From Erinaceus europaeus (Eukaryota > Chordata > Mammalia > Eulipotyphla > Erinaceidae), in contig NC_080179.1 of assembly GCF_950295315.1 (NCBI RefSeq), positions 74,319,261 through 74,383,260 on the forward strand: DNA of 64,000 nt. The letters run 5' to 3'. This document shows, in pieces, positions 33,188 to 61,269 of this stretch. Positions within the stretch are counted from its first letter, which is position 1; each line of letters begins with the position of its first letter. The notes under the pieces are model-generated. The model was not told the DNA's origin. It saw nothing but the letters and a program-made list of their open reading frames with translations, and searched no databases. Both the position numbers and the translations under genes were made by a program.

Positions 33188-34061
33188 TAAAAACTCTTTA
33201 TTCCCTCTTCCCCTTCCTCCATCTTTCCTTTTTTTTTTTTTTTTTTTTATCTTTCTCGCTCTCTATTTTTTAAAAAAATCTTTATTGGGGGATTAATGTT
33301 TTACATTTGACAGTAAACACAATACTTTGTACATGCATAACATTTCTCAGTTTTCCACATAACAATACAACCCCCACTAGGTCCTCTGTCATCCTTTTTG
33401 CACCTATACTCCCCCCCTCCCCACCCCAGAGTCTTTTACTTTGGTGCAATACACCAACTCCAGTTCAGGTTCTACTTGTGTTTTCTCTTCTGATCTTGTT
33501 TTTCAACTTCTGCCTGAGAGTGAGATCATCCCATATTCATCCTTCTGTTTTTTACTTATTTCACTTAACATGATTTCTTCAAGCTTCATCCAAGATGGGC
33601 TGAAACAGTGAAGTCACTGTTTTTAATAGCTTAGTAGTATTCTATTGTGTATATAGACCACAACTTGCTCAGCCACTCCTCTGTTGTTGAACACCTGGGT
33701 TGCTTCCAGGTTTTGGCTATTACAAATTGTGATGCTAAGAACATAAGTGTACAAAATCTTTTTGGATGGGTGTGTTGGGTTCCTTAGGATATATCCCTAG
33801 GAGAGGAATTGCAGGGTCATAGGGTAGGTCCATGTCTAGCCTTCTGAGAGTTCTCCAGACTGCTCTCCACAGGGGTAGGACCAGATTACATTCCCAACAG
33901 CAGTGTAGGAGGGTTCCTTTGACCCCACAACTTCTCCAGCGTTTTTTGCTGCTACCTTTTCTGATGTATGAAATTCCCACAGGAGTGAAGTGGTATTTAA
34001 TTGTTGTCTTTATTTGCATTTCTCTGACAGTCAAAGACTTGGAGAATTTTTTCATGTGTTT

Positions 34062-34545
34062 TGCCAGGAAGTTGTACAGATGTGGTTGAGTTTGGCAGGG
34101 CTCACAAAGCACCCTGCATTCCTGATACTATGGCCTATCTACATAATCATTGTTTTGCTTGAAAGAGCCCCACCCATTTCATTCCTTTGATCTATCTTCT
34201 TTCTACCCTCAAGACCCTCCCTGCCTGCAGGGTATCATTAATCCTACCAGTTAAAACTCTCACAACTGTTGCTAAGGAAGTTCCTACCTTTCAAGCCTCC
34301 TTTTGCCTTTCTCCACACCTTTCCTAGCCATTTCCATTTCCGACTTGCCACTTCCAGGTCTGTCTTTTAAAAGCCTTGGCTCTCTGATCAATAAAGATAT
34401 TGCATTGCCTTGCCTCAAAAAGAGCTTGATTCCTTAGTCATCTCCCTCACGTCACTGAGTAGCAGCCCAGGCTGGCTCTGGTTGAGTTCTCTCCAACCCA
34501 GAGAGCATGTGCCCAGGAAGAGGCACACCCACGCTAGCCCAGCGG
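34062..34545 (+). mobile_element. Solo LTR inside L1, 5-bp TSD
   Basis: 484-bp insertion beginning TGCCAGG, flanked by TGTTT at 34,057-34,061 and 34,546-34,550. L1 sequence resumes on each side (compare the uninterrupted L1 at 41,120). It contains TTTTAAAAGCC (TATA-like) and CAATAAAG (poly(A) signal) ~20 bp apart, as in retroviral LTRs. Related to 57,361-57,860 over GTTGTACAGATGTGGTTGAG and the CTTTCCTAGCCA..ACTTGCCACTTCC block. No viral genes are present. The right terminus is not a canonical CA, so the edge may be mutated. Confidence 0.8.
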
Positions 34546-36065
34546 TGTTTCTCAGCCTTTTGGGTCTCTTCTGTGGTGAATATTCTGTCCATGTCCTCTC
34601 CCCATTTTTTGAAGGGGTTATTTGTTTTCTTGTTATTGAGCCTGGCAAGCTCTTTGTATATTGTAGTTATTAAACTTTTGTCTGATGTATGGCATGTAAA
34701 GATCTTCTCCCATTCTGTGAGGGGTCTCTTGGTTTGGATGGTGGTTTCTTTTGCTGTGCAGAAGCTTTTTAATTGGATGTAGTGCCATATGTTTATACTT
34801 GCCTTAGTCTTCTTTGTAATTGGATTTGTTTCTTTGAAGATGCCTTTAAAATTTATGCAGAAAATAGTTCTGCCAATATTTTCCTCTAAGTATCTGGTAG
34901 CTTCTGGTCTAACATCCAAGTCCTTGACCCACTTGCAATTTACTTTTGTGTTTGGTGAAAAAATTGGTTCACTTTCATTCTTCTGCATGTTTCAATCCAT
35001 TTTTTCCAACATCATTTGTTAGACTCTGCTTTCCCCATTTAATAGTCTGGACACCTTCGTCAAAGATTAGATGTCCATAGATGTAGGGGCTTACTTCTGG
35101 GCTCTCATTTCTATTCCACTGGCCAGTGTGTCTATTCATGTTCCAGTACCAAGCAGTTTTGATGACAATGGCCATATAATACAATTTGAGATCTGGGAGT
35201 GTGATGCCTTCAATTCTGTTCTTTCTTCTCAAGATTGTTTTGGCAGTTCTAGGTTTTTTCTGGTTCCAGATCAACAATTGTAGCATTTGTTCTATTCTCC
35301 TAAAATATGTGTTTGGGATCTTGATGGGGATAGCATTAAATTTGTAGATGGCTCTGGGTAGTATATTCATTTTGATGATGTTAATTCTTCCAACCCACTT
35401 CTTTGTGTCTTTTTCAATTTCCTTGAGTAGTGACTCATAATTTTCAGTATACAAGTCTTTCACTTCTTTGGTTAAGTTTACTCCTAGGTATTTTATTGTT
35501 TTTGTTGCTATAGTAAAAGGAATTGATTTCTGGATTTCAATTTCTTCTAACTTAGTTTTTGCATAGAGGAATGCCACTGACATTTGTGTATTAATTTTGT
35601 ACCCTAACAATTTACTGTATTGCCTGATGATTTCCAAAAGAGTCTTGTTGGATTCTTTAGGTTTTTTTTTTTTTAATGTATACTATCATGTCATCTGCAA
35701 ATAGGGAGAGTTTGACTTCTTCTCTTTCAATTTGCATGCCTTTATTTCCTTGCTTCTGCCTGATTGCTATGGCAAGAACTTTCAACACTGTGTTGAATAG
35801 TAATGGTGATAGTGGGCAGCCCTGTCTAGTACCTTATCTGAGTGGAAATGCTTCCAGTTTTTCACCATTGAGTATGATGTTGGCTATAGGTTTGCTATAT
35901 ATAGACTCCACTATCTTGAGGAATTTTCCATCTATTCCCATTTTTTGTAGAGTTTTGATCATGAAGGGATGTTGTTATTTTGTCAGAGGCTTTCTCTGCA
36001 TCTGTGGATATTACCATGTGGTTTTTGGTCTTGCTTTTATTGATGTGGTGGATCACATTGATTGA
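34452..36065 (-). pseudogene. L1 ORF2 reverse-transcriptase relic
   Basis: A 220-codon open frame (34,975-35,637) carries L1 RT sequence downstream of the active site: [30 protein letters not shown] and [19 protein letters not shown]. The FADDM catalytic motif lies just upstream in a different frame segment (35,690-35,701). A second frame (34,452-34,988) overlaps by a few codons after a frameshift and is then cut by the LTR at 34,545. ORF2 is therefore dead, though moderately preserved. It is an RT/endonuclease polyprotein remnant of a LINE-1, not a host gene. Confidence 0.88.
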
Positions 36066-37081
36066 TTTATGTATATTAAACCAACCTTGAATCCCTGGGA
36101 TAAACCTGACTTCATCATGATGAACAATCTTTTAAATTTAATGCTGTGTCCGGTTGGCTAGAATTTTGTTCATTATTTTAGCATTTATGCTCATCAGAGA
36201 TATCAGTCTGTAGTTTTCTTTTTTTGGTTGTATCCTTGACTGCTTTTGGTATCAGAGTGATGCTGGCTTCATAGAAGCTGTGTCTTCAATCTTCTGGAAG
36301 ACTTTTAAAAGTAGAGGTGTTAACTCTTCCTTGAAGGCTTTGTAGAATTCGTTTGTAAAACCATCTGGTCCACGACTTTTATTCTTGGGAAGGTATTTTG
36401 ATAGCTGTTTCAATTTCACTAGCTGTGATGGGCCTGCTCATATTATATAGTTCCTCTTTATTTAATTTTGGAAGTTCGTAGGTATCTAGGAAATTGTCCA
36501 TTTCTTCCAGGTTCTCTAGCTTGGTGCCATATAGTTGTTCATAGAAACCTCACATGATATGTTGAATTTCTGTGGTGTCTGTTGTGATATCTTCTCTTTC
36601 ATTTACAATCCTGTTTATTTGGGTCTTCTCCCTTTTTTGTTTTGTGAGTCTGGCTAAAGGTTTGTTGATTTTGTTCACTCTTTTGAAGAACCAACATTTA
36701 CTTTTGTTGATCTTTTGTATGGTTTTCTTATGATTTTCAATGTTATTGATTTCTGCCCTAACTAGTGATTTCTGTCCTTCTGGTTGTTTTAGGGTTCCTT
36801 TGTTCTTTTTCTTCTAGGTTTTTAAGGAATGCAATCCGGTTGTTTATTTGTGATTTTTCTTGTTTCCTAATGTGTGCTTTTATGGCTATGAAATTCCCTC
36901 TCAGTACTGCCTTAACTCTTTCCCAAATATTTTGATACCTTGTGAGTTCATTATCATTGAACTTTTGAAACATTTTGATTTCTTCCTTTATTTCCTCTTT
37001 GACCCAGTAGTTATTAAGTAGTGTACTATTGAGCTTCCACATTTTGGGACTATTACTAATCTTTTGTTGATTGTTAAGTGT

Positions 37082-37705
37082 CTCTTCCCTGATCCAACTT
37101 TCTGGTCCTTTTTCCAGCCATGACATCATCTCCCCAGACGATAACTTGGATCCACCTGCATATAAGATGTCAAAAACAAAAACAAACAAACAAAAAACTA
37201 GTACAGTCATGGGCTTTTTGGAATGTAACTAAAATAGGCTTACTAACTATCTATTAAACAGAGACCCCTTCCCCCCCAACTCTACATCTGAACTATTCCA
37301 GCCTTTAGGTTCAGGATTAGTCAACACTTTTTTGACTTTATACGTTAACTCTTTATTTAGCCACCAGGTTCCAGATGTTAAGATGATGCCAACTGGGCTT
37401 CCCTGGGCAGACGATCCCACCAATGTGTCCCAGAGCCCCACTTCCCCAGAGCCCTGCTCCACTAGGGAAAGAGACTGGGAGTATGGATCAACCTGTCAAC
37501 ACCCATATTCAGCGGGGAAGCAATTACAGAAGCCAGACCTTCCACCTTCTGCATCCCACAATGACCTTGGGTCCATACTCCCAGAGGGTTAAAGACTAGG
37601 AAAGCTATTAGGGGAGGGGATGAGATATGGAGTTCTGGTGGTGATAATTGTGTGGAGTTGTACCCCTCTTATCCTATGGTTTTTTGTCAGTGTTTCCTTT
37701 TTATA
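37082..37705 (+). mobile_element. Rep-R, 5' truncated, abutting L1
   Basis: Begins at the L1 edge (CTCTTCCCTGATCC), then AGCCATGACATCATCTCCCC, GACCCCTTCCCCCCCAACTC, CCACCAGGTTCCAGATGTTA, CCACCTTCTGCATCCCACAA and ATGGAGTTCTGGTGGTGATA. It is the closest relative of the copy at 60,385. Orientation is opposite to the L1. Confidence 0.85.
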
Positions 37706-37855
37706 AAAAGGAAGTTTCTTTCCCATTTTTAAAGGGTTTTATGATTTCTGGTCTCACAACTTCAGAGTATTTAATGGAAAGAAGACAATTTCTTCAACAA
37801 ATGGTGAAGAAAAAATTGGATTGTCATGTGTAGAAGAATAGAACTAGTCCTCAAT

Positions 37856-38153
37856 GTTTTTTTAATGTTTCTGCTTATTTATTTATTCCTTTTTGTTGCC
37901 CTTGTTTTATTGTTGTAGTTATTTTTGTTGTAGTTATTGATGTCGTTGTTAGATAGGACAGAGAGAAATCGAGAGAGGAGGGGAAGACAGAGAGGGGGAG
38001 AGAAAGATAGACACCTGCAGACCTGCTTCACCGCCTGTGAAGTGACTCCCCTGCAGGTGGGGAGCTGGGGGCTCGAACCGGGATCCTTATGCTGGTCCTT
38101 GCACTTTGCACCACCTGCGCTTAACCTGCTGCGCTACCTACCGCCCGACTCCC
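37856..38153 (-). mobile_element. SINE-B with 12-bp TSD
   Basis: Inverted: TTGCCCTTGTTTTATTGTTG, GGATAGGACA-type end (GATAGGACAGAGAGAAATCG), CCCCTGCAGGTGGGGAGCTG, TTAACCTGCTGCGCTACCTA. TSD CTAGTCCTCAAT at 37,844-37,855 and 38,154-38,165. Confidence 0.96.
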
Positions 38154-38165
38154 CTAGTCCTCAAT

Positions 38166-38818
38166 CTTCTATCTTGCACAGAAAGTAATTTTAAAGAGAT
38201 TAAACACATAGGCTGCCAGGTATCATTATGCATCATCACTAAAAGGAATCAGCCCTGTCCCTAAATATTGTGAGACGCTAAGAGTGCTCTAACTCGAATC
38301 AAACTTCCTCCTGACAAGGTTATCAACTCACTACCCATGATCTCTCTCAGTGGAGCACCTGGCAGTAACTGTATTCTCCCTGATTCTCTGCTGCCTCCTT
38401 GCACTCACAGCAGTTTGTGATACTTAGCAGAAGCTCAGTAAAATTGCTAAATGACTGAGTAGCTTTTCATCTGTGAAGTCCATTCATTTTATATCTCCCA
38501 TATTGGGCATCACTATTATATGTTTATTTATTTTATTAGTGATTTAATATTGACTTATGTTAGTCATCATTATTCTTAGCATTTTTGTATCTTTCTTGAG
38601 TGATTGGTGTTTTTGCCTTCAAGGATTTTTGCCAGGAGTTACATTCTCCCTGGAATCAGGGTCAGCCTTACACTTAGAGGAGTCTCGAGGTCACTACATC
38701 TTCTAATGGTGGTAACTTTGCCTCATGAAGCACTTGCTCTTCAGCTGTGTAAGGGGCTTCCATTGGCTGGCGAGGGTCATGGTGACAATGTGTTGTCCCT
38801 GGCTTGTCTACCATGAGG
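38166..38818. other. Unique DNA, no gene seen
   Basis: A/T-rich with no recognised repeat. Confidence 0.5.
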
Positions 38819-38832
38819 GAGAACGAACTTTT

Positions 38833-39094
38833 TTTTAATATATATTTATTTATTCCCTTTTGTTGCCCTTGTTGTTTTATTGTTGTTGTCGTTGTTGGAT
38901 AGGACAGAGAGAAATGGAGAGAGGAGGGGAAGACAGAGAGGAGGAGAGAAAGATAGACACCTGCAGACCTGCTTCACCGCCTGTGAAGCGACTCCCCTGC
39001 AGGTGGGGAGCCGGTGTTCGAACCGGGATCCTTATGCTGGTCCTTGTGCTTTGCGCCACCTGGGCTTAACCCGCTGCGCTACAGCCCGACTCCC
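38833..39094 (-). mobile_element. SINE-B with TSD
   Basis: Inverted full body with CCCCTGCAGGTGGGGAGCCG and TTAACCCGCTGCGCTACAGC. GGGAGAACGAACTTTT at ~38,818 and 39,095-39,110 is the TSD. One CAACAACAATAA block is shortened. Confidence 0.95.
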
Positions 39095-39110
39095 GGGAGA
39101 ACGAACTTTT

Positions 39111-40110
39111 AACATATGTGCTGTGGAGTTCAGGACGGAGTTCCCCAGCTTCCTCCCATCATTTTTGTACCAGCATTTCCCCCTTCGCAATTGGACACTT
39201 CCCACCACCATCCACATATGCTGTCTCTGCTCCAATGTGGTAATAAGCCCCCCACCGCCACCTGCTCCCCCCATGACTATGGAGGAGACCATGGGAGCTT
39301 CAAGCTGGAGCTACCTGGGCTGCCAGGTGGAACAGCTACACCAGTGAGAAGGGTGCTGAGCCTGCTACTGGCTGCTGTGCAGGCTGCCCAGTGGGAAACT
39401 ATACCCCAGGTCTGGGGGAAAGAGATGGCAGGTCACAGTTGGGGAGAGGAGACCCAGGCTCTTTGGGGCTTTTAGAATGTTTGAAGGAACCACAGGAGCC
39501 TGTATTTTTTCCTTATCTAAATAAGATCTGCTCTCTTACCTCCCATTCACAGGCATCTGTGTGCCACCACTCCCACCACCTCAATTCCTGCCCCACTATC
39601 TGAAGTCCTCCTCCACTGTCTAACAGCCTCCCATCTAGAGTCCTCCTCCGCCATCTGAAATCCTTTCTCATGCTTGTGCACTGGGTTCCCAATCTCTTCT
39701 CCACCCTCTTCAGCCTCCCCCTTAAAGCGATTTGGAAAAAGAAAAAATGAAAGAGGGATCATTGCAACTCATGCTACATAAGTTAGGGTCATGCTAAGCT
39801 GCTATGGACAATTGTACATTGATACACTGGGGACTTGGAAATAGAGAAAAGACTAGAAAGAAGCCCATTTATCTGCGGTTGCCAGACCTCTGGGGCCTTC
39901 AGGAAGGTGAGGAGCCTGCTTTCCAAACACAGAGTGCTAGACTTTGAAGAGACAGGGAGCTTGGCCTTTCCTTTTTTTTTTTTTTCTTTCAGGAATTTTA
40001 AACTTTGTTCAAGAAAATTGAGAACATTCACATGAGAGAGGGAGAGAGGGAGAGAGGGAGAGAGGGAGAGGGAGAGAGAGAGAGAGAGAGGAGAGGAGGA
40101 GAGGAAGTAA
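39111..40110. other. Unique DNA, ending in a GA tract
   Basis: Open frames of up to 119 codons without domains. Purine tract GGGAGAGAGGGAGAG from 40,036 to 40,110. Confidence 0.45.
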
Positions 40111-40117
40111 GACAGAG

Positions 40118-40259
40118 GGGAGAGAAACCCCCAGAGCTCTTAATCACATGTTGATGGGGTGCTCACCTAGGGCTGAGAGAAAGAGGAAGACAGGAAGAGA
40201 GAGAAGCCCCTGAGAGCTCTCTGACTCACGTGTTGACCCAGGGCTCACCCAGCCGAGAG
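40118..40259. repeat. Degenerate ~81-bp tandem duplication
   Basis: GAGAGAAACCCCCAGAGCTC...GTTGAT...GGGCTGAGAG is repeated as GAGAGAAGCCCCTGAGAGCT...GTTGACC...CCGAGAG. Confidence 0.7.
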
Positions 40260-40342
40260 TGTGAGCTTGGCTTTTCTGAGCTGCTCTTATGAGGGAAAGG
40301 GCAGAAGCCCCACCACACAGCAACAGGGAGTATTCACTTTTT

Positions 40343-41972
40343 AAAAACATTTCTTTATTGGGGATTAACTGTTTACAGTTGACAGTAAAATACAGTAGTT
40401 TGTACATGCACAGCATCTCCCAGTTTTCCACATAACAGTTCACCCCTCAGTAGGTCCTCCCCTGCCATCATCTTCTAGGTCCTGAACCCTCCCCCCACCC
40501 CAGAGTCTTTTACTTTGGTGCAAGACACCAACTCCAGTCCAAGTTCTGCTTCGTGTTTTCCCTTCTGTTCTAGTTTTTCAGTGTCTGTCTATGAGTGAGA
40601 TCATCCCATAGTCATCCTTCACTTTCTGACTTATCTCACTTAACATGATTCCTTCAAGCTCCATCCAAGATGGTGGAAGAAGATGAATTCACCGTAGCTG
40701 AGTAGTATTCCATTGTGTATATAGACCACAACTTGCTCAGCCACTCATCTGTTGTTGGACCCCTGGGTTGCTTCCAGGTTTTGGCTATTACAGATTATGC
40801 TGCTAAGAACATAGGTATACACAAATCTTTTTGGAGGGGTGTGTTGGGCTCCTTAGGGTATATCCCCAGGAGAGAAATTGCAGGGTCATAGGGTAGGTCC
40901 CCATCTAGCTTTCTGAGAGTTCTCCAGACTGTTCTTCACAGAGATTGGACCAATTTACATTCCCACCAGCAGTGCAGGAGGGTTCCTTTGACCCCCTCCC
41001 CTCTCCAGTATTTGTTGCTGCTGTCGTTTTTTGCTATATGACATTCTCAGAGAAGTGAAGTTCTATTTCATTGTTGTCTTTATTTGTATTTCACTGACAA
41101 GCATGACTTGGAGCATTTTTTCATATGTTTATTGACCTTTTGGATCTCTTTTATGGAGAATATTCTGTTCATATCCCCCTCCCATTTTTGGATGGGGTCA
41201 TGCTTTTCTACTGATGAGTTTGTCAAGCTCTTTATATATTTTGGTTATTAGCCTCCTGTCTGATGTATGGCATGTAAATATCTTCTCCCATTCTGTATGA
41301 GGTCTCTTTGGGTGATGGTATCTTTTACTGTGCAGAACTTTTAAACTTTTATTTAGTCCTGTTGGTTTATTTTTGATTTAGTCTTCTTTGTAATTGGGAT
41401 TTGTATCATTGAAGATGCCTTTAAATTATAAGGAAAAGAGTTCTGTCAATATTTTCCTCTAAGTATTTGATAGTTTCTGGTCTAATATCCAGGTACTTTA
41501 TCCTGGTATTTACTTTTGTGTTTGGTGAAATATAATGGTTCAGTTTCATTCTTCTGCATGTTTCGACCCAAGTTTTCCAACTCCATTTGTTGAATAGACT
41601 CCCCTTTCCCTATTTAATAGTCTGGGCACCCTTGTCAAAGATTAGATGTCCATAGACATGTTGGGGCTTATTCTGGGCTCTCAATTCTATTCCATTGGTT
41701 AGTGGGTCTATTTATGTTCTAGTACCAAGTAGTTTTGATGACAATGATCCTGTGATACTGTTTGAGATCTGGGAGTGCGATGCCTCCAGTTCTATTCTTT
41801 CTTCTCAAGATTATTTTGGCAATTCTAGGTCTTTTCTGGTTCCAGATGGACATTTGCAACTTTTGTTCTATTCTCCTAAAAAAAATTTGGGTGGGATCTT
41901 GATGGGGATTGCATTGAATTTGTATATGGCTCTGAGTAGAATACTCATTTTGATGTTAATTCTTCCAATCAA
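40343..41972 (-). mobile_element. L1 'B', 5' truncated
   Basis: Inverted 1.63-kb L1 3' end: TTTCTTTATTGGGGATTAAC terminus, then the same order as L1 'A' (CCCCAGAGTCTTTTACTTTG, GAGATCATCCCATAGTCATC, GCTTCCAGGTTTTGGCTATT, TGATGTATGGCATGTAAATA). It is not interrupted by the LTR, so it gives the empty-site reference for the 34,062 insertion. Frameshifts abolish ORF2. Confidence 0.92.
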
Positions 41973-41976
41973 ATAT

Positions 41977-42127
41977 ATTTTTAAAGGTTTTATTTATTTG
42001 TTAATGAGAAAGATAAGAGGAAAGAAAGAACCAGATATCACTCTGGTATATGTGCTACCGGGGATTGAACTTGGGACTTCATGCTTGAGAGTCTAATACT
42101 TTATTTACAGTGCCATCTCCTGGACCA
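41977..42127 (-). mobile_element. SINE-C
   Basis: Inverted TTTTATTTATTTGTTAATGA, ACCAGATATCACTCTGGTAT, CTTCATGCTTGAGAGTCTAA and CAGTGCCATCTCCTGGACCA, exactly abutting the truncated 5' edge of L1 'B'. Confidence 0.92.
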
Positions 42128-43048
42128 CATGGAGAGAACAGGACCCTGGGTCCCACTCACATCTCATGGTTGAGAGATAAAGCTTCTGTGACTCTTGATG
42201 ATCTGTGTTTAGAGTATGTGTTCCCAATGAGAACTTTAACAAAGTCCTCATTATAGCAGAGCATGGCACAAAAAACATCAAAAGCAACTTTTAAAGGGGA
42301 CACAAATTACAACAGTTAATTCAGGACCACCATAATATTGCCATGGAATCCTCTGACCATGTAGTAGGTACTCATCATGTCCACATTATAAATTCCATGG
42401 TCTGAGAGGCATCGGTGTTTACCAGTTCTAGGCCTTTGGCCTCAGGATCTTGTAGACCAAGCTGTTCTTTAGCTCAAGACATCCACCAGATGCCCCTCAG
42501 AGACTAAGAGTTGAATAGCCAGAATAAAGAACATGAGAGTCAGCAGGTGGTCAGCATTTCTTTAGCTCTCCACATAGCTTGCCAGTAATTAGGGAAAGAA
42601 CTCAGCAGAGAAATCACCAAAGATATCAATTAGTAACAACCATTACAATTCAGGGGTCTTATAACCATCAAGAAATTAGGGATTAAGAAATCAGGGGGTC
42701 TCCAACAATGGAGTCCTGAATTCCCTGAGACTAGCAGGTAGGCAAGGGGTCCCTAACTCAGTGAGAAGATACGAACCCCCCACAGGCAGGTGCACAAGCG
42801 CCCCCACGACAGACCAGTAGCAGCTGCTGGTCTGGCAACCCGCCACCAGTTCCAGATAGGCGTGTGCTAACAGCACTCAGGCCTCAGCTGTCTCCAGTCA
42901 ACTTCTCCGTCGTCCTCACTGCTCAGGAGCCACTGCAGTAACCCCTGCCCTAATCACGCACCCTGAGTGCTGCCTCACTCCGCTCTCCCTTCTTGGGGGG
43001 GAGGGGCAGTCAATAAGTGAGACCTTGTGTACATGGTGTATTAGACAC
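42128..43048. other. Unassigned 0.9-kb block
   Basis: No protein frame or known repeat recognised. It lies between L1 'B'/SINE-C and the CA array inside the interval that splits the L1. Confidence 0.45.
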
Positions 43049-43108
43049 ACACACACACACACACAGATACACACACACACACACAGACACACACACACAC
43101 ACACACAC
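43049..43108. repeat. (CA)n microsatellite
   Basis: CA repeats with two GA/GATA interruptions, at the 3' tail side of the inverted Rep-R copy. Confidence 0.95.
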
Positions 43109-43119
43109 TACCCCCCATT

Positions 43120-44335
43120 TTTATTGATTTAATAATGATCAAGAAGATCATAGGATAAGAGGAGTACAATTCCACACAATTCCCACCACCAGAGTTCTAC
43201 ATCCTATCCCCTCCATTGGAAGCTTTCCTGTTCTTTATCCCTCCAGGATCATTATGGGGTGAAGAAGGTGGAAGGTCTGGTTTCTGTAATTGCTTCTCCA
43301 CTGGATATGGGCTTTGGCAGGTCGATCCATATTCCCAGTCTATCTTTCTCTAGTGAGGCATGTCTCTGGGGAGGTGGGGTTCATTGGTGAGGTCATCTGC
43401 CGAGGGAAGTCAGTTTGATGTCATGGTAGGATCTGCAACTTGGTGGCTGAAAAGTATTAAGATATAGAGGAGTACAAGTTATTTAATAGTCAGAAACCTA
43501 AAGATAAAAAAAAAGATGAGAATTGGGGTCTCCATTTTAGAAAAAGCTAGTGAGTGTATTTTAGGTCTGTTCCAAGGGGCCCATTGCTTTACTAATTTTT
43601 GCTTGAGCTTGATAGCAAACAGGCAGGTGGGCTAAAGGTATTGTCTGGGGAGATGGTGTCAGAGTTGGAAATAGGACTAGAAAGCTGGATCAGGACAGAG
43701 AGTAGCTTCCAAAATATGGGAAAAGTCTATAAATACCTCTAGTCTCTGCGTCCTGCATGGGGACAAGTCAAATGGTCCCTAGAGGAGGAATGAGAGCTGA
43801 GGGGTAGGGAGGGCTTGTGCCAAAGACACAGCAAACTTTATTTAGGATAATACATGGATATATACTTCACATAATCAGTTAAAGAATAAGCAAGAGGTTA
43901 CATAAGTTCAAGCAGCACCTGGTGTTTATGAACTCCTACTATATGTTTGGGTTTATTCAGCAGCTAGCAAAGCCAAGGCCAGGTCAGAATGTTCTGCTAA
44001 TGTTTGCAGACATAACTGGGGAAGTTGCGGGTTCAATCAAAGGCCATGGGGTCCTTTCCCATGCTTTTTTGCTTCCGGCAGCCTTGTTTACCAAGGGCCT
44101 ATTGAAGACTTGCCTTTTGATGGTCACCTACAAATACCACTAACTGTGAACCCCACTGATCTGATCTGGGGCCCATACTCAGCACAGGGGCCTGTGTGAC
44201 CTCTGCCTCCCTGTAGGTTGGTGCTCACATTCTGTGGTCACAGCTAGGAACATTCTAGGCTGCACTCATTTCAGGACCAGTCTATCTCAAGTGGCAGAGT
44301 ATGTTGACCCAGCCTCCCTTTGGAGAATGGGGTAG
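43120..44335 (-). mobile_element. Rep-R, long copy, split by an LTR
   Basis: The minus strand carries the 3' end (GTGGAATTGTACTCCTCTTA) and extends upstream through AGACAATACC and CCAACTCTGACACCATCTCC. After the LTR it resumes at 44,139 with ATCAGTGGGGTTCACAGTTA, then CCTACAGGGAGGCAGAGGTC and GAATGTTCCTAGCTGTGACC. The upstream part aligns with 60,385-60,590 and 51,170-51,290, giving a unit of at least ~1 kb. Confidence 0.7.
43738..44132 (-). mobile_element. Solo LTR candidate inside Rep-R
   Basis: ~395-bp insertion flanked by AATACC at 43,732-43,737 and 44,133-44,138. The minus strand begins TGTAGGTGACC and contains TATATATCCATG and CCTAAATAAAGTTTGCTGTG, an LTR-like TATA-to-poly(A) layout. 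The terminal bases are not a perfect TG...CA. No internal viral region. Confidence 0.6.
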
Positions 44336-44649
44336 TCCCTACCACTGTTGACCCATATTGAGGGCAAGATCCTGTAAAGGCTCACAAGAGTGTCCACTGT
44401 GTTGTTCTTGATGAATCTTACCATCGATGGTGGAAAGAGGAATCTGTTAGAGGTTTAGGCCCATCATGTCTATGTGGGAATCCTGGGATCCCTAACTAGG
44501 GTCCTGGTTGTGACCAAAAGAGTCATCATTAAAGTATATGGGTCTCTTGTTTTTATCCAGCTTTTGTAGTTTCTACTTTGTCTGACATGCTTAGCCTTAG
44601 AGTCACACTACTCTTTTTAAATGACTGACAGCATCTTGTTTTGTCTACT

Positions 44650-44760
44650 ACAGAACTCTTGTGAAGTAGAAAGAGTCGGGATTACCTTCTCATTTTAGAA
44701 ATGGGGATACAGAGAGACCTGGGACCAGGACCCTGCCCTAGTTCAGAGCCCCTCTGTTTC
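44650..44760 (+). mobile_element. MIR-like fragment
   Basis: CTTCTCATTTTAGAAATGGG, GATACAGAGAGACCTGGGAC and CCTAGTTCAGAGCCCCTCTG follow the MIR core order. Confidence 0.45.
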
Positions 44761-44954
44761 TTCATCTGTGGGATTCCAACACATTCTCTGTCTAGAGCTA
44801 GTTGCACAGCCCAGGCACACCTGCTGTATCTAAGCTCCATGTTCAAATTCATATACAACCCCTTCCTTGATCCTTCCTTATAAGGATTCTATTGGTTTAT
44901 TAAGGTAAAGAAATCTTAATGAATTTAGACTTATTTACTGGTTAAAAATTAATT

Positions 44955-45137
44955 GCTAGAAACAGAAGTTGAGAAAAATGGGGAGGGGAAAGAAAGAGGG
45001 AAAGAGAAAGATACAATACCTACAACACAGCTTCACTGCTCATGAGGCTTCCCCCATGCAGGTGGCGACCAGGGGCTTGAGTCGGTGCCTTGTACATGGT
45101 AAGATGTGTGCTCTTCCAGGAGTCTCCACGGCCTGAC
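44955..45137 (-). mobile_element. SINE-A
   Basis: Inverted AGAAACAGAAGTTGAGAAAA, ACACAGCTTCACTGCTCATG, CCCCCATGCAGGTGGCGACC and GTACATGGTAAGATGTGTGC. Confidence 0.82.
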
Positions 45138-45202
45138 TCTGTGACTAAACTGATTTAGAAAGAGAGAGAACCAGAGCATCACTTCGGCACACATGGTGCC
45201 AG

Positions 45203-45360
45203 ATTCTCTCTTTCCCTCTCTATCTTCCCCTCCCCTCCCCTCTTAATTTACTCTGTGCTATGCAATAAAAAAAAAAGCAAAAAGTGGCATCTAGGAGCAG
45301 TGTATTCATAGTGTTGGCACCAAGTCCCAGCAATAACTCTGGTGGCAACAAGAAAACAAA
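45203..45360 (+). mobile_element. SINE-A 3' part with module
   Basis: ATTCTCTCTTTCCCTCTCTA, AATTTACTCTGTGCTATGCA, an A run, module GGCATCTAGGAGCAGTGTAT and CCAGCAATAACTCTGGTGGC. A SINE-C/D-like inverted scrap (45,150-45,200) precedes it. Confidence 0.75.
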
Positions 45361-45784
45361 AACAAAAACAAACCCCTGATCCTTCCTTACCCGCTCCTGG
45401 CCTGCCACACTCTGCTACTTGGGGCTGCTTCTCTGTCACGCTTCCCTGCTCCACCGGCTCCTCTTGCCTCAGCAGCTTCACTCCAGCCCAAACATGCAAT
45501 TTCTCACCTGGATGGATCACTCTGCCTCCCTAATCCACGCTCTGCCAGGCAACCCGTGTGTGAGCTTTTAAGAACGCCAATTGGATCCTGTCACGTTGCT
45601 GCTGAGATCAATCTTTGCTGATAGCATCCTGTGGGATCCAGGCTGCTTTTTCTCTCTCTCCAGTCCAGGTCCCTCAAAGCCTTGTACGGTCGCTTGAATA
45701 CACACCCTGGTCACTCAGAACACCTTCCCATACCTGCAGAGAGGGTCAGCCTCCAGCCGTCTCAAATGCTGCTCGTGACTGCCT
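45361..45784. other. Unique DNA, no gene seen
   Basis: No repeat or domain recognised. Confidence 0.5.
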
Positions 45785-45980
45785 TAAAGAGCTGGCTGTG
45801 GTGATGTACACAGTGGAGCACATGTTACCATGTGCAGGGACCTGGGCTCAATCCCCTAGTCCACACTTAAGGAAGGAGGTAGCTTTCCAAGTGGTGAAAT
45901 GGTGCTTCATGTGTTTCTCTGTCTCTATCTTGAACTTTGCTTTCTTCTTAATTTCTGTCTGTATAAAACAAATAAACAAA
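45785..45980 (+). mobile_element. SINE-A, diverged
   Basis: GAGCTGGCTGTGGTGATGTA, CACATGTTACCATGTGCAGG, CCTGGGCTCAATCCCCTAGT and ATAAAACAAATAAACAAAAC tail. Confidence 0.78.
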
Positions 45981-46120
45981 ACCTCTGTGTTGTGGGTTTG
46001 CCCATGAGCACCACCTATTAGTGTCCAACTGTCATTTCTGCACTTCCTACATTTCTCTCTCCTGTCTGTCTCCCTCCCTGAATTCTAGACCTGAATGGTT
46101 AGCTGCACTCTTGAGAAACC

Positions 46121-46300
46121 TGGGGCTGGGGTTTGGCTGTGGCACACTGGTTGAGTGACAATACACGAGGACCCCAGTTCAAATCCGCAGTTGACACCTG
46201 CAGTGGCGAAGCTTCACAAATGGTGGAGCAGGGCTGCAGGTGTTGTTCTTCCCCTCCCCTCTTGATTTCTCTGTCCCTATCCAAACAAGTAAATAAAATA
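46121..46300 (+). mobile_element. SINE-A, diverged
   Basis: TGGGGCTGGGGTTTGGCTGT, GAGGACCCCAGTTCAAATCC, GACACCTGCAGTGGCGAAGC, GGGCTGCAGGTGTTGTTCTT and AACAAGTAAATAAAATA. Confidence 0.8.
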
Positions 46301-46340
46301 TAAGAAAATTTAAAACAGAAATAATAGAGAAAGAAAATCC

Positions 46341-46534
46341 AGGGGCTGGGAGATGGCTCACCTGATGGTGTCCACTTTAGTATGCACGAGGACCTGGGTT
46401 TGAGCCCCTGGCCACTACACTAGAGCGCTGTGCACGGTAGCTTCATGAGCAGTAGGGCAGTGCTGTGTCTTCCTTTCTCCTTCTATCTGTCTCTGGTTCT
46501 CTTTCGTGCTGTCTTTCGTTCTGTATCTGGAAAA
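46341..46534 (+). mobile_element. SINE-E/A mosaic
   Basis: Head GGAGATGGCTCACCTGATGG is SINE-E-like, while GTAGCTTCATGAGCAGTAGG and the following C/T tract are SINE-A-like. Possibly a recombinant or an intermediate subfamily. Confidence 0.65.
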
Positions 46535-46548
46535 GAAAATCTGCCTGA

Positions 46549-46800
46549 TTGGGTGGGATAGATTGACCTGTCATTGCCCATGTTCAGCGGAGAAGCAATT
46601 ATAGAAGTCAGACCTCCAACCTTCTGCACCCCAAATAGAACTTTAGTTCATACTTCCAGAGGGATAAAGAATAGGGAACCTTCCAATGGGGGTGTAGTGG
46701 AATGGAATGTGGCACTCTGGTGGTGGGGATTGTATGAATTTTACCCTTCTTATGTCACAATCTCATTGATCATTATGAAATTACTAATAGTAAAAAATAT
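46549..46800 (+). mobile_element. Rep-R, truncated
   Basis: GCCCATGTTCAGCGGAGAAG, CTTCTGCACCCCAAATAGAA, CAGAGGGATAAAGAATAGGG and CTCTGGTGGTGGGGATTGTA, with an AATAGTAAAAAATATATATA tail. It sits between two copies of a TSD (46,536 and 47,046) together with the L1 3' end that follows. Confidence 0.75.
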
Positions 46801-46834
46801 ATATATAAGAAGTTGAAAAATAAGAAAACACAAA

Positions 46835-47042
46835 TCAGAACTTGGACTGGGTTAAGTGTATTGCATCAAAGTAAAAGACTCTGGGTGCGGGGGAGAGGGT
46901 TCAGGTCCTGGAACTTGATGTCAGAGGAGGACCTAGAGGGGGTTGAATTGTTATGTGAAAAACTGAGAAATGTTATGCATGTACAAACTACTGTATTTTA
47001 CTGTTGAGTGTAAACCATTAATCCCCCAATTAAAGAAAAAAA
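46835..47042 (+). mobile_element. L1 3' end
   Basis: TGGGTTAAGTGTATTGCATC, AGACTCTGGGTGCGGGGGAG, CATGTACAAACTACTGTATT, TTACTGTTGAGTGTAAACCA and CCCCCAATTAAAG tail: plus-strand L1 terminus. Confidence 0.9.
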
Positions 47043-47059
47043 GAAAAGAAAATCTGCCT

Positions 47060-47279
47060 GGGGCTGGGTGGTGGCGCATCTGGTTGAGCACACATGTTAC
47101 AATGCACAAGGACCCAGGTTCGATCCCCTAGTCCCTACCTACAGTGAGAAAGCTTACAAGTGGTGAAGCAGTGTTGCAGGTGTCTGTCTCTCTCCCTCTC
47201 TATCATCCCCTTCCCTTTCGATTTCTACCTGTCTCTATCCAATAAATAAAGATAAGCAAAAAAAAAAAAATTAAAAAAA
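47060..47279 (+). mobile_element. SINE-A with TSD
   Basis: GGGGCTGGGTGGTGGCGCAT, ACATGTTACAATGCACAAGG, ACCCAGGTTCGATCCCCTAG and TCCAATAAATAAAGATAAGC. GAAAATCTGCCT flanks it at 47,047 and 47,281. Confidence 0.94.
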
Positions 47280-47317
47280 AAGAAAATCTGCCTAAGAGGT
47301 GGAGTTGTGTACAGTGT

Positions 47318-47506
47318 TTATATATATATATATATATATATATTTTATTTATTTAATTTTGAGAGAGATGCCGAGAGAGAGAGAGAAACACCAGAGCACT
47401 GCCCAGCTCTGGCTTATGGTGGCACGGGGGATTGAACCTGGGACTTTGGAGCCTCAGGCATGAGAGTCTCTTTGCATAACCATTATGCTATCTACCCCCG
47501 CCCTAC
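47318..47506 (-). mobile_element. SINE-D with (TA)n tail
   Basis: TATATA run at 47,318-47,342 at the tail, then inverted CACCAGAGCACTGCCCAGCT, GGATTGAACCTGGGACTTTG, CAGGCATGAGAGTCTCTTTG and TAACCATTATGCTATCTACC. Confidence 0.92.
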
Positions 47507-47940
47507 AGTGGTTTTTATAAAAGATTCATGTCTGAGTCTCTGAAGTCCCAGGTTAAGTCCTTGGCACCAGAGTTGAGCAGTGCTATGGCTAAAATGAGGA
47601 AGAGAGGAAGAGACATTAATCTCTCTCTGTACATATTCCTTGGGGAAAACACCCATACCAAGACCCCAACATATCCAGCACTTGGATCTTGGATCCCAGC
47701 TACCAGAAGCAAGAGGAATAAATGCCTATTGGTAACCCCCTGGTCTGCAGTCCTTTGTAGATGACACTCAACTGTAGATGACACTCCTCTGCAGTGATCA
47801 AAAATAAAGAAATGGTAATGACTAGATGAGATATACAGAATGCAAAACTTTCTAAAACTGAGCATGGTATAATCATGTCAGTGGAAAAGTAGTGAATTTT
47901 AGTCAGAATGTGTCACAAGAAATAAATTAAAAAATATTTT
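47507..47940. other. Unassigned DNA, possible SINE-D scrap
   Basis: 47,525-47,600 (GTCTGAGTCTCTGAAGTCCC, GAGTTGAGCAGTGCTATGGC) may be a truncated plus-strand SINE-D. TAGATGACACTC is repeated near 47,758 and 47,777. No gene. Confidence 0.4.
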
Positions 47941-47947
47941 TTATCTT

Positions 47948-48660
47948 TTATTGATTGTTAAGTGTTATTTTAATTCCAATGTGGTCTGAGAAGATGCTCG
48001 GGATGATTTCAATGCTCTTGAATTGGCTGATGCTGTCTTTGTGGCCCAACATATGGTCTATCCTTGAGAATGACCCATGTGGACTTGAGTAAAATGTGTA
48101 TTCCAGTTTCTTGGGATGAATGACTCTGAAGATGTCCAATAGTTCTATCTATCTCCTCATTTAGCTCCCTCATGTCTTTAATGATTTTCTGCCTGGATGA
48201 TCTGTCAAGTTGAGAGAGTGGGGTGTTGAAGTCCCCTACTGTGACTGTGTTGCTGTTAATATATTGCTGTAGCTCTTTCAGTAGATGTTTGATGTATTTA
48301 GATAGCTTCTCATTGGGTGCATAGATGTTAATAATTATTAAGTCCTCTTGATTGACTGATCCACTGAGCATTAAGTAGTATCCATCCCTATCTTTTTAAA
48401 ATTTATTTATTTTGAAGTCTATCTTGTCATATATGAGAATAGCTATTCCTTCCCCTTTTTGTGGGCCATTGGCTTGTATGATAGTTTTCTATCCTTTCAC
48501 TTTGAGTCTGTGTTTGTCTTGTTGAGTTAGGTGGGTTTCTTGTAGACCCCATATTGCTGGGTTGTGTTTTCTGATCCATCTTCCTACTCTGTGCCTTTTA
48601 GTAGGTGAATTCAGGCCATTGAAATTTATTGTAATCAATGACTGAAGGTGTTTTAATGCC
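47948..48660 (-). pseudogene. L1 ORF2 endonuclease-domain relic
   Basis: AP-endonuclease-like domain of LINE-1 ORF2. Seen: INFNGLNSPTKRHRVGRWI near the start, the WGLQETHL motif (catalytic Glu), INIYAPNEK, the VGDFNTPLSQLDRSSRQK motif, FSRIDHMLG and the SDHIGI motif with the catalytic Asp-His pair. Frames break: one open piece is 48,009-48,371, another 47,948-48,139, and a stop replaces a Trp/Glu-type codon before HTIIQAN. Inactive as it stands. Confidence 0.85.
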
Positions 48661-48699
48661 ATTCTTGTAGATTTTTATAGTGTTCTGATATATGGCCTA

Positions 48700-49541
48700 T
48701 TTATGGTGGTCTGACTGTTTACAGGAGACCTTTCAGAACTTCTTTCAGGATAGGCTTGGTGTTAGTTGATTCTCTCAACTTCTGCTTGTCTGAGAAGGTT
48801 TGATGCCTCCATCTACTTTGAATGGACAGTCTAGCAGGATACAGAGGAAAACCTTTCTCATTGAGCACTCAATAGATATCTTGCCTTTCTCTTCTGTCCA
48901 GTAGTGTTTGTGTGGAGAAGTCTGCTGCTAATCTTATGGGTTTTCCTCTGTAGGTGACTCTTTTTCTCTTGCAGCCTTCAGGATCCTTTCTTTATCCTTA
49001 TTCCTTTCCATTCTAAATATGATGTGTCTTGGTGTCTTTAAGTCTGGGTTAATTCTGTTTGGGACCCTCTGGGCTTCTTGAACCTTTATGTCTTTGATGT
49101 TGTCTAGACTAGGGAAGTTCTCAGCTATTATGTCCTGAAGAATGCTTTCTTCCCCTCCCTCTCTTTCTTCCTCTGCTAAGCCAGTAATGTGTATATTATC
49201 TATTTTGAAGTCATCCCTTATGTCTCTGTTGTTTTCAGTATCTCAATCTCTTTTTGAGATTTCTTACTTTTTTTAGTTGTCTCTACTTTGTCCTCAATCT
49301 TGTGAATTCTCTCTTTAGCCTCATTTATTCTATTCTCTTTCCCATTTATTGTTTTCTGTAGTTCATCTATTTTGTTAGCCTGTTCTGATACTGTTTTAGC
49401 TTGTTCAGCTAGTTGTGTTCTTAGCTCAGCTATTTCAGCATTCAGCTCTCTAATAACCTTGAGATAATTAGTGTTTTCTTCCAGGGTCTCATTTGTTGTT
49501 TCTGCATTTCTGATGACAATTCTTTCAAACTCTTTACTCAC
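48700..49541 (-). pseudogene. L1 ORF1 relic (coiled coil, RRM, CTD)
   Basis: LINE-1 ORF1p, an RNA-binding trimeric chaperone. The open 107-codon frame at 49,218-49,541 is a heptad-rich coiled coil (IRELNAEIAELRTQLAEQAK). Downstream, in broken frames, come the RRM part (VQEAQRVPNRINP, TPRHIIFRM, DKERILKAAREK near 48,960-49,090) and the C-terminal domain (ADFSTQTLLDRREW near 48,900). Stops lie between the blocks. Confidence 0.85.
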
Positions 49542-50559
49542 TCCTATGATTATTTTCTTAACTAGTGTTTGGATGTTGACCTCATTATTTTGTGCTTCAA
49601 CCTCTGGGGAACCTTTTTAGCTGGACTCTTGTTCTGGTTCATTTCTCCAGTATTTCTTCTTATTGGCTTTACCATTCTATATAGTATGTTATGAGGTTCC
49701 TCTCTCTGTACTTTTCAAATTACTGATCACTTTTGCCTGGATTGACTTGTGTCTAAGTAAGGTAAGTAAAGGGTTCACAGTTGTGGAAATTGACAGTTGT
49801 TTCAATAGTATTTTAATCCCTGAGTTGGAGCACAGTGCCTTAAAAGCCTCTTTTGTTCTTTTTCTTCCCTGTAGGGTATAGGAGCCTGAGGACTTTTAAA
49901 CTATAAGTAGGCTTCTTAGCTTAATCACTGACTCCTGACCAAGAGATAAAGCAGAATGGGGTAGAGATAATCCAGTGATTATGCAAAGAGACTCTCACAA
50001 CCCCACTGCTAGGCCACTGGAGATATAGATCTTCTCCTGAGTTTCCTGGTTAGTTCTCTGTCCCCTGGTGTCAGCACAGGGCCCCCTGTTGCTGCTCCAG
50101 ATTCTGAGGGCAGTAGCAATGGAGACTCACAGTTGCATTTGGTGAGTCTTAGGGGAGTCCTCTCCTCCCTTCAGCTGTCCCCTTGTTGGTGAAACAGACT
50201 GGAGGTGGTGTCTCAACTGGTAAACTGTGGGACTGTTACCAGTCACTTAATCTCTCCCTAGGCTCCTCTCTGTTCATGAGCCAAATGTGTTTGCACTTAC
50301 CAGTGATTTGGTGATTTTCTAAGGTCGTTCTAGGCCTATCTTGTTGTGGTCCTATGTGGTCTCCTTTGGAATTCCTAGTTGACCCTGGAGAGGAGAGGAG
50401 AGGAGAGGAGAGGAGAGGAAAGGAGAGAAACACAACTGCTGCTCTGTAGCCATATTGCCCACTTTTCTATGGCCCTGCTTTCTCTTCCTTTCTAAGTCAC
50501 ACCTATACCTATAATTTCTTCTGAATGTCCTTCTTTTTTCTCCCTATTTTCTCTTTGGG

Positions 50560-51290
50560 TCCTGATGGAATTGTAGTTCAGAGCCCTCTGGTCATCTTCC
50601 CCTAAAATTTCTCCCCCTCTGGCAGTGTGGACCAAAAACTTTTTATGGGGAGCAGAAGGTAGGAGTTCTGGCTTCTGTGATGTCTTCTTTGATGGACATG
50701 AATGTTGGCAGGTGAATCCATTACCCCCAGCCTGTTTGTGTTTTTTCCTAGTTGGGTAGGACTCTGGAAAGTTGAGGTCCCAGGACACATTATTGAGGTT
50801 TTCTGTCCAGGCAGGTCACGATGAAATCATGGTAGCATCTGCAACTTGATGGCTAAAGGCAGTAAGATGTAGAGTAGGATAAAATGTTTAATAAACAGGA
50901 ACCAAAAAGTAGTAATAGAGCAGATGAGACTGGGGGTGGATTGGGGTGTAGCGAAGTCGGGAAGTCTTATTTTAGGTCTGTTTCTAGGAGTCCTTGACTT
51001 TAGTAATTTTTGCCTGAGCTTGATAGCTAATATGCACATGACCTAAACATATTGTCACCTGGTAAGATGGTGTCAGAGTTAAGAATAGACCTAGAAAGCT
51101 GGATTAGGGCAGACAGTAGCTCCCAAACTTGAAGGGGAAATATATATATATATATATATATATCACAGCAGCCTGTGTAACTTCTGAGTCCCTGTCAGTC
51201 TGAGCTCATAGTCCATGTCATAGCTGGGAACATCCTAGGCAGCACTCATTTCAGGACCAGTCTTTCTCAAGTGGTAGAATAGGGGCCTGC
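50560..51290 (-). mobile_element. Rep-R, older copy
   Basis: Inverted: TTCAGAGCCCTCTGGTCATC, GGAGCAGAAGGTAGGAGTTC, GGCTTCTGTGATGTCTTCTT, CAACTTGATGGCTAAAGGCA, GAGCTTGATAGCTAATATGC and GATGGTGTCAGAGTTAAGAA, then the part shared with 44,200 (TTTCAGGACCAGTCTTTCTC). A (TA)n run lies at 51,138-51,162. Confidence 0.72.
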
Positions 51291-60384: not shown

Positions 60385-61190
60385 AAGGCCAAGGCTGGAC
60401 AACACACTCTATGTTCCACCTGAGGAAGATGGGCCCTGCAATTGGGGCAGCTTGGAATGTTCCTACTCATGACCACATTGCGTGAGCTCAGACCTACAGG
60501 GATGCAGAGGTCACATAGGCTCCCTAGATGAATATGGGCGCCAGATCAGAACAGATCAAATCAATAGGGTTTACAGTCAACAATATTTATACACCTTTTT
60601 GCAGCCATGACACCATCTCCCCAGACAATAACTTGGATCCACCTACATATCAGATGTCGGGCTCAGAAAAAATAAACAAATAAAACTAGTATAGTCATAG
60701 GCCCTTTGGAATATAACTAAAACAGGCCTACTAACTATCTACAAAACGGAGACCCCCCCCCAACTCATCATCTGAACTATTCCAGCCTTAGTCAACAATT
60801 TGTTTGGCTTTTTATGTTTACTCTTCTTTCAGCCACCAGGTTCCAGATGCAACCATGATGCCAACCAGACTTCCCTGGACAGACAACCCCACCAATGTGT
60901 CCTGGAGCTCTGTTTCCCTAGAGCCCTGCCCCACTAGGGAAAGAGAGAGACAGGCTGGGAGTATGGATCCACCTGCCAACGCCCATGTTCAGCAGGGAAG
61001 CAATTACAGAAGCCAGACCTTCCACCTTCTGCATCCCACAGTGACCCTGGGTCCAAACTCCCAGAGGGATAAAGAATAGGAAAGCTGTCAGGGGAGGGGA
61101 TGGGATACGGAGTTCTGGTGGTGGGAACTATGTGGAGTTGCACCCCTCTTATCCTATGGTTTTTGTCTGTTTCCTTTTTATAATTTAAAA
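60385..61190 (+). mobile_element. Rep-R, longest well-preserved copy
   Basis: GGCCAAGGCTGGACAACACA, GGAATGTTCCTACTCATGAC, CACCATCTCCCCAGACAATA, GCCCTTTGGAATATAACTAA, CCACCAGGTTCCAGATGCAA, GGCTGGGAGTATGGATCCAC, CCACCTTCTGCATCCCACAG and CGGAGTTCTGGTGGTGGGAA, then an A/T tail. It carries no long open frame, so the family looks non-autonomous or represents an untranslated end. Confidence 0.82.
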
Positions 61191-61269
61191 TTAAAAGAAG
61201 GCCAAGCTGACACCAGATGCTTTTAGGATCTCTGTGCTGAGCCCTCAATGGATGAACAAATGGCAGGAA

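Follow-up and report, generated by a model that had tools for sequence, protein, structure and literature searches.

Two fragments of L1 retrotransposon, here called L1 A and L1 C, lie 10.9 kb apart in the genome of the hedgehog Erinaceus europaeus, and the question raised by this locus is whether they belong to a single element and, if so, how the DNA between them came to be there. By the window we mean the whole stretch of DNA that was analysed, 64,000 nt in length (C96:74,319,261-74,383,260, within an assembly of 2.72 Gb). A and C are most likely the halves of one L1 that was opened by a second, ordinary retroposon. The fuller account that we favour, and hold to be probable, is that a copy of the repeat Rep-R inserted into one full-length L1 and that an older block of 10.2 kb was then placed between the body and the tail of this Rep-R copy. 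The features concerned are collected in Table 1.

An earlier, sequence-only reading of the window had described A and C as minus-strand pieces ordered as one element. Comparison with the human ORF2 protein (ORF, open reading frame), ORF2p, confirms this, A matching its reverse transcriptase (RT) part (residues 711-933) and C its endonuclease part (residues 91-173). The repeat at the two inner ends, which had been given as ~25 nt with two differences, is also present, but it is 23 bp long with one difference (22/23 identical), and can be extended to 31 alignment columns with 4 differences. When 37,081 is joined in silico to 47,966, 168 ORF2 codons are open across the junction, the frame being broken further out. 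For comparison, 12 other L1 loci of the same genome, picked from the best matches to the A edge, were fetched; they provide 13 sites, and in 13/13 the L1 is contiguous at the A/C breakpoint, the end of A and the start of C overlapping there by 23 bp at the edges as set. The limit of homology of A is independent of this choice of edges, since 39 other matches end at query base 180-183, that is, at 37,079-37,082. The 39 best other matches stand at 92-93% over ~182 bp for the A edge and at 94-95% over ~301 bp for the C edge.

A comparison of divergence between the halves had been proposed as a check on their common origin. Counted as non-CpG differences from the majority base of the fetched copies, divergence is similar, with 130/2387 (5.45%) in the RT part of A and 105/2296 (4.57%) in C (z = 1.4), the comparison copies having been selected for their likeness to the A edge; the 3′ untranslated region (UTR) of A shows 37/734 such differences. 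Within the 12 fetched loci, 8 inserts of 228-2,739 bp were counted, with L1 edges overlapping by 3-15 bp (an approximate count, not base by base). The geometry of the A/C interruption is thus ordinary, and the interruption of an L1 is in itself routine. In the portions of PMC2517846 that deal with interrupted (nested) L1s, an older transposon is likewise split by a younger insertion and rejoined by defragmentation, and poly-A stretches are favoured as targets, that inside Alu being a favoured target of L1 and Alu. Unlike the nested L1s described there, the block inserted here is 10.9 kb long and largely consists of older single-copy DNA rather than of a younger repeat.

Table 1. Features of the L1 A/L1 C locus (positions in the window)
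Feature	Positions	Strand	Basis or remarks
L1 A, 3′ half of L1 (RT to 3′UTR)	33,279-37,081	-	~5% from majority base
483-bp insert in L1 A	34,062-34,544		GTGTTT on both sides, by eye
Left copy of 23-bp L1 stretch (target-site duplication)	37,059-37,081		sequence comparison, fetched loci
Rep-R body, 5′-truncated at L1 edge, without usual tail	37,082-37,707	+	30/561 non-CpG diverged
Inner block, mostly older DNA: single-copy stretches, short interspersed elements (SINEs), L1 B, old repeats	37,708-47,917		genome searches
L1 B, 5′-truncated, more diverged than A and C	40,338-41,970	-	39 best other matches 84-86%
Old interspersed repeat	42,240-42,710		39 other places 70-78% identical over main stretch
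A-rich tract, proposed 3′ tail of Rep-R insertion	47,918-47,934	+	adjoins right duplication
Right copy of 23-bp L1 stretch	47,943-47,965		sequence comparison, fetched loci
L1 C, 5′ half of L1 (part of 5′UTR, ORF1, endonuclease)	47,943-50,457	-	human ORF2p match, copy comparison

What opened the L1 may be read from the two outer edges of the interval. The plus-strand repeat that begins right after 37,081 is Rep-R, present in high copy number. Upstream of the truncation point three other Rep-R copies run on (those at 43k and 51k in the window and one in L019), the copy at 60k has a gap at that point, and other copies begin further in, so that the copy under study is truncated at the L1 edge. The divergence of the truncated copy resembles that of the L1. 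At the 3′ end, 18 of the 19 Rep-R copies sampled, which were picked for a good 3′ end, continue with TATAA(A/G)T(A/C), L050 being different, and most of them become A-rich after this motif (L039, L042 and L044 hardly do so). The truncated copy ends with TATAAA at 37,707 and is followed by DNA of which no second copy was found in the searches described below. Elsewhere in the window, the Rep-R copy at 60,385-61,206 is flanked on both sides by AAGGCCAAG, a 9-mer that occurs 4 times in the window, and this fits Rep-R as a retroposon with a duplication of its own.

At the right edge, the A-rich tract immediately precedes the duplication if this is read as 31 bp; plus-strand 17-mers with at least 12 A number 603 among the 63,983 of the window. 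The marks of target-primed insertion are present, namely a truncated 5′ end on the left, an A-rich tract on the right and a target-site duplication, and the two edges, taken together, have the appearance of a single retroposon insertion into ORF2 of the L1. A 5′-truncated Rep-R would have entered ORF2 in plus-strand orientation by target-primed reverse transcription, with 37,082 as its truncated 5′ end and 47,918-47,934 as its A-rich tail, and a target-site duplication of 23 bp, perhaps up to 31 bp, would have been made at that step. Later, older chromosomal DNA (37,708-47,917) would have come between body and tail, presumably without being duplicated, as a block cut out elsewhere and pasted by break repair into the A-rich tail. 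The earlier proposal of one L1 split by a large insertion with target-site duplication accordingly remains the best reading, given the uninterrupted copies, the similar divergence of the halves, the truncated retroposon on the left and the A-rich tract on the right; the way in which the 10.2 kb came between body and tail is inferred.

The unusual part of the locus is the inner 10.2 kb. Genome searches with scoring of candidates found no second copy of 37,721-37,842 (best 40 of 842 candidates scored), 38,154-38,821 (16 of 16, and apart from ~45 bp), 42,720-42,980 (best 40 of 148), 44,607-44,940 (best 40 of 9,184) or 47,614-47,940 (best 40 of 192). A close paralog of a whole query would be expected to rank first, whereas one that matches just the unique part might escape, most easily for 44,607-44,940. 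On account of the single-copy stretches among those searched, a multi-copy transposon was rejected as the nature of the insert. The interval had been judged too much for one ordinary retrotransposition, which holds for the inner 10.2 kb but not for the edges. The sequence-only reading was silent on the repeats of the interval, which look older than the L1. L1 B has poorer best matches than the corresponding stretch of A, for which they stand at 89-92%, and a Rep-R copy lying at 43,149-43,701 departs from the sampled majority at 82/507 positions, subfamily differences included. Taken with the old repeat at 42,240-42,710, these copies indicate that the L1 encloses DNA of older appearance than itself, for which no source was seen in the searches above. 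A scan of the window against Rfam gave 0 matches at the gathering score, and among the 10 of the 47 ORFs of the interval that were scanned against Pfam the sole match was below the cut-off.

Because no second copy was found, we infer a non-duplicative insertion rather than a copy, and insertion of this kind into the A-rich tail fits best for the 10.2-kb block. For the same searched stretches, the lack of a second copy speaks against a tandem duplication with later loss, which had been among the earlier models. In insertional translocation by break repair, old chromosomal DNA likewise changes place and leaves no source behind. What sets the present locus apart is that its outer edges bear the marks of a retroposon; a keyword search of the literature on insertional translocation by break repair returned no match. 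Alternatively, the retroposon insertion may itself have captured 10.2 kb of chromosomal sequence, in the form of DNA and not of RNA, so that it came to separate body and tail. This we consider quite unlikely; if true, old single-copy DNA would have reached a young L1 in a single step, accompanied by a target-site duplication.

The same outer edges, with 5′ truncation, an A-rich 3′ end and a long duplication, would also be expected of a giant 3′ transduction, in which a Rep-R transcript extended through 10.2 kb of DNA on its 3′ side and all 10.9 kb were retrotransposed into the L1, the source being later lost or unassembled. A 10-kb transcript would be exceptionally long, no source copy was seen for the five stretches (best candidates scored; all scored only for 38,154-38,821), and the Rep-R tail is missing at 37,707, unlike in 18/19 copies, in the first bases after TATAA, so that we regard this course of events as very improbable. 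L1-mediated 3′ transduction, as treated in part of PMC4862182, also yields a retroposon followed by unique DNA, with an A-rich end and a target-site duplication; the present case departs from it in the 10.2 kb, in having no source copy seen and in a Rep-R without a tail at its own 3′ end. Since the left inner junction lies where a repeat of high copy number has its 3′ end, it could be suspected that the 10.2-kb piece was placed there by an assembly misjoin. Such an error would have needed two matching false joins, the second of which would have to lead back into the tract and into L1 C. There is no N in the window, and one base differs between the two 23-bp copies, which are thus not one copied k-mer. 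The locus has very little chance of being an artefact of this kind.

Several observations weigh against an insertion of Rep-R followed by arrival of the block. It is rare for as much as 10.2 kb to move and leave no source behind, and no scar of such a source was found, although none was searched for. Under the 23-bp reading, 8 bp separate the A-rich tract from the duplication. The tract is moderately Rep-R-like, its mean score being reached by 10/141 composition-matched 17-mers and its best score by 52/141. By eye, neither end of the 23 bp has a TTTT/AA-like L1 endonuclease nick, and a length of 23-31 bp lies at or above the range of 4-25 bp quoted in a passage of PMC4862182. The halves also differ somewhat in their mean distances to other copies, A standing at 9.8% (copies mutually 9.0%) and C at 10.4% (copies mutually 11.8%). 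The lineage correlation between A and C is -0.54, below 86% of mismatched pairs; however, eight true pairs average 0.00, which means that this measure has no power. Of the 8 copies compared, L009 comes closest to A as well as to C. There is no clear duplication on the flanks of the L1 as a whole, the best among six combinations being equalled by 52/1000 random and 3/1000 composition-matched windows, with an uncertain 5′ end, and this line does not decide. Finally, A alone possibly has a candidate duplication of its own, judging by the resemblance of 33,205-33,228, to the left of its poly-T, to the sequence from 37,082 on. Pinned to the edges, this match is equalled by 7/1000 random and 8/1000 pyrimidine-matched windows; for the other tail position the figures are 360 and 881 of 1000, and unpinned 52/2000.

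The last point would be expected if the agreement of A and C were a coincidence, A being an independent 5′-truncated L1, C an unrelated L1 without its 3′ half and the interval native all along; that the interval looks old and single-copy is likewise what native DNA would show. The match nevertheless requires three substitutions plus a gap of 2 bp within ~21 bp, though the L1 is only ~5% diverged, and its right copy is plain Rep-R sequence, the upstream part of which was not found to the left of A. The nick site for A alone is atypical (by eye). For C alone no flanking duplication was found, 814 and 1779 of 2000 windows scoring as well. A 23-bp agreement by chance within a 6-kb element has a probability of ~0.5%, as a rough estimate, and a break at this point occurs in 0/13 other sites. 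Coincidence is therefore unlikely, although we find it easier to accept than the transduction or the misjoin. As for a premature end of C, the AATAAA-creating change noticed earlier at 47,947-47,952 is real, 13/13 sites having the other base, but premature polyadenylation was rejected: the tail would fall ~4 nt after the signal, and C alone lacks a flanking duplication.

Some further features of these L1s and of the interval deserve mention. The 483-bp insert in A, previously taken for a long terminal repeat, is missing from all L1 loci that align there (10 of the 12 fetched); it starts with TG and its end is not CA. The 5′UTR of C had been drawn to 50,460, which is roughly supported by eye, 6/7 inspected copies ending nearby, but C has a longer 5′ extension that it shares with the L1 of L014. 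This extension is Rep-R-like in both (50,563-51,281 and L014:1870-2462), while the six other inspected L1 copies stop close to the position that corresponds to 50,470. These amount to two kinds of L1 5′ end, one with sequence common to a separate retroposon. A pair of L1 pieces at L018:4,653-10,000, oriented alike and both covering the A/C site, lie close together. Within the interval, two SINE copies, at 37,843-38,160 and 38,817-39,110, are flanked by duplications recognized by eye (CTAGTCCTCAAT; GGGAGAACGAACTTTT). At 46,533-47,060, the 3′ part of a Rep-R precedes the 3′ end of an L1 that has an A-rich tail, between copies of the 15-bp AAGAAAATCTGCCTG (boundaries by eye), and a third near-copy of AAGAAAATCTGCCTG follows a SINE, at 47,280-47,294. 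The arrangement is apparently that of a chimeric retroposon and a nested SINE.

If the block moved, the locus would record how 10 kb of mammalian DNA changed place without being duplicated, an event that can be dated and the landing site of which is fixed to the base by the split L1 and the retroposon. If it did not move, the locus shows how easily two L1 fragments can mimic one split element, which matters for the automatic defragmentation of repeats.

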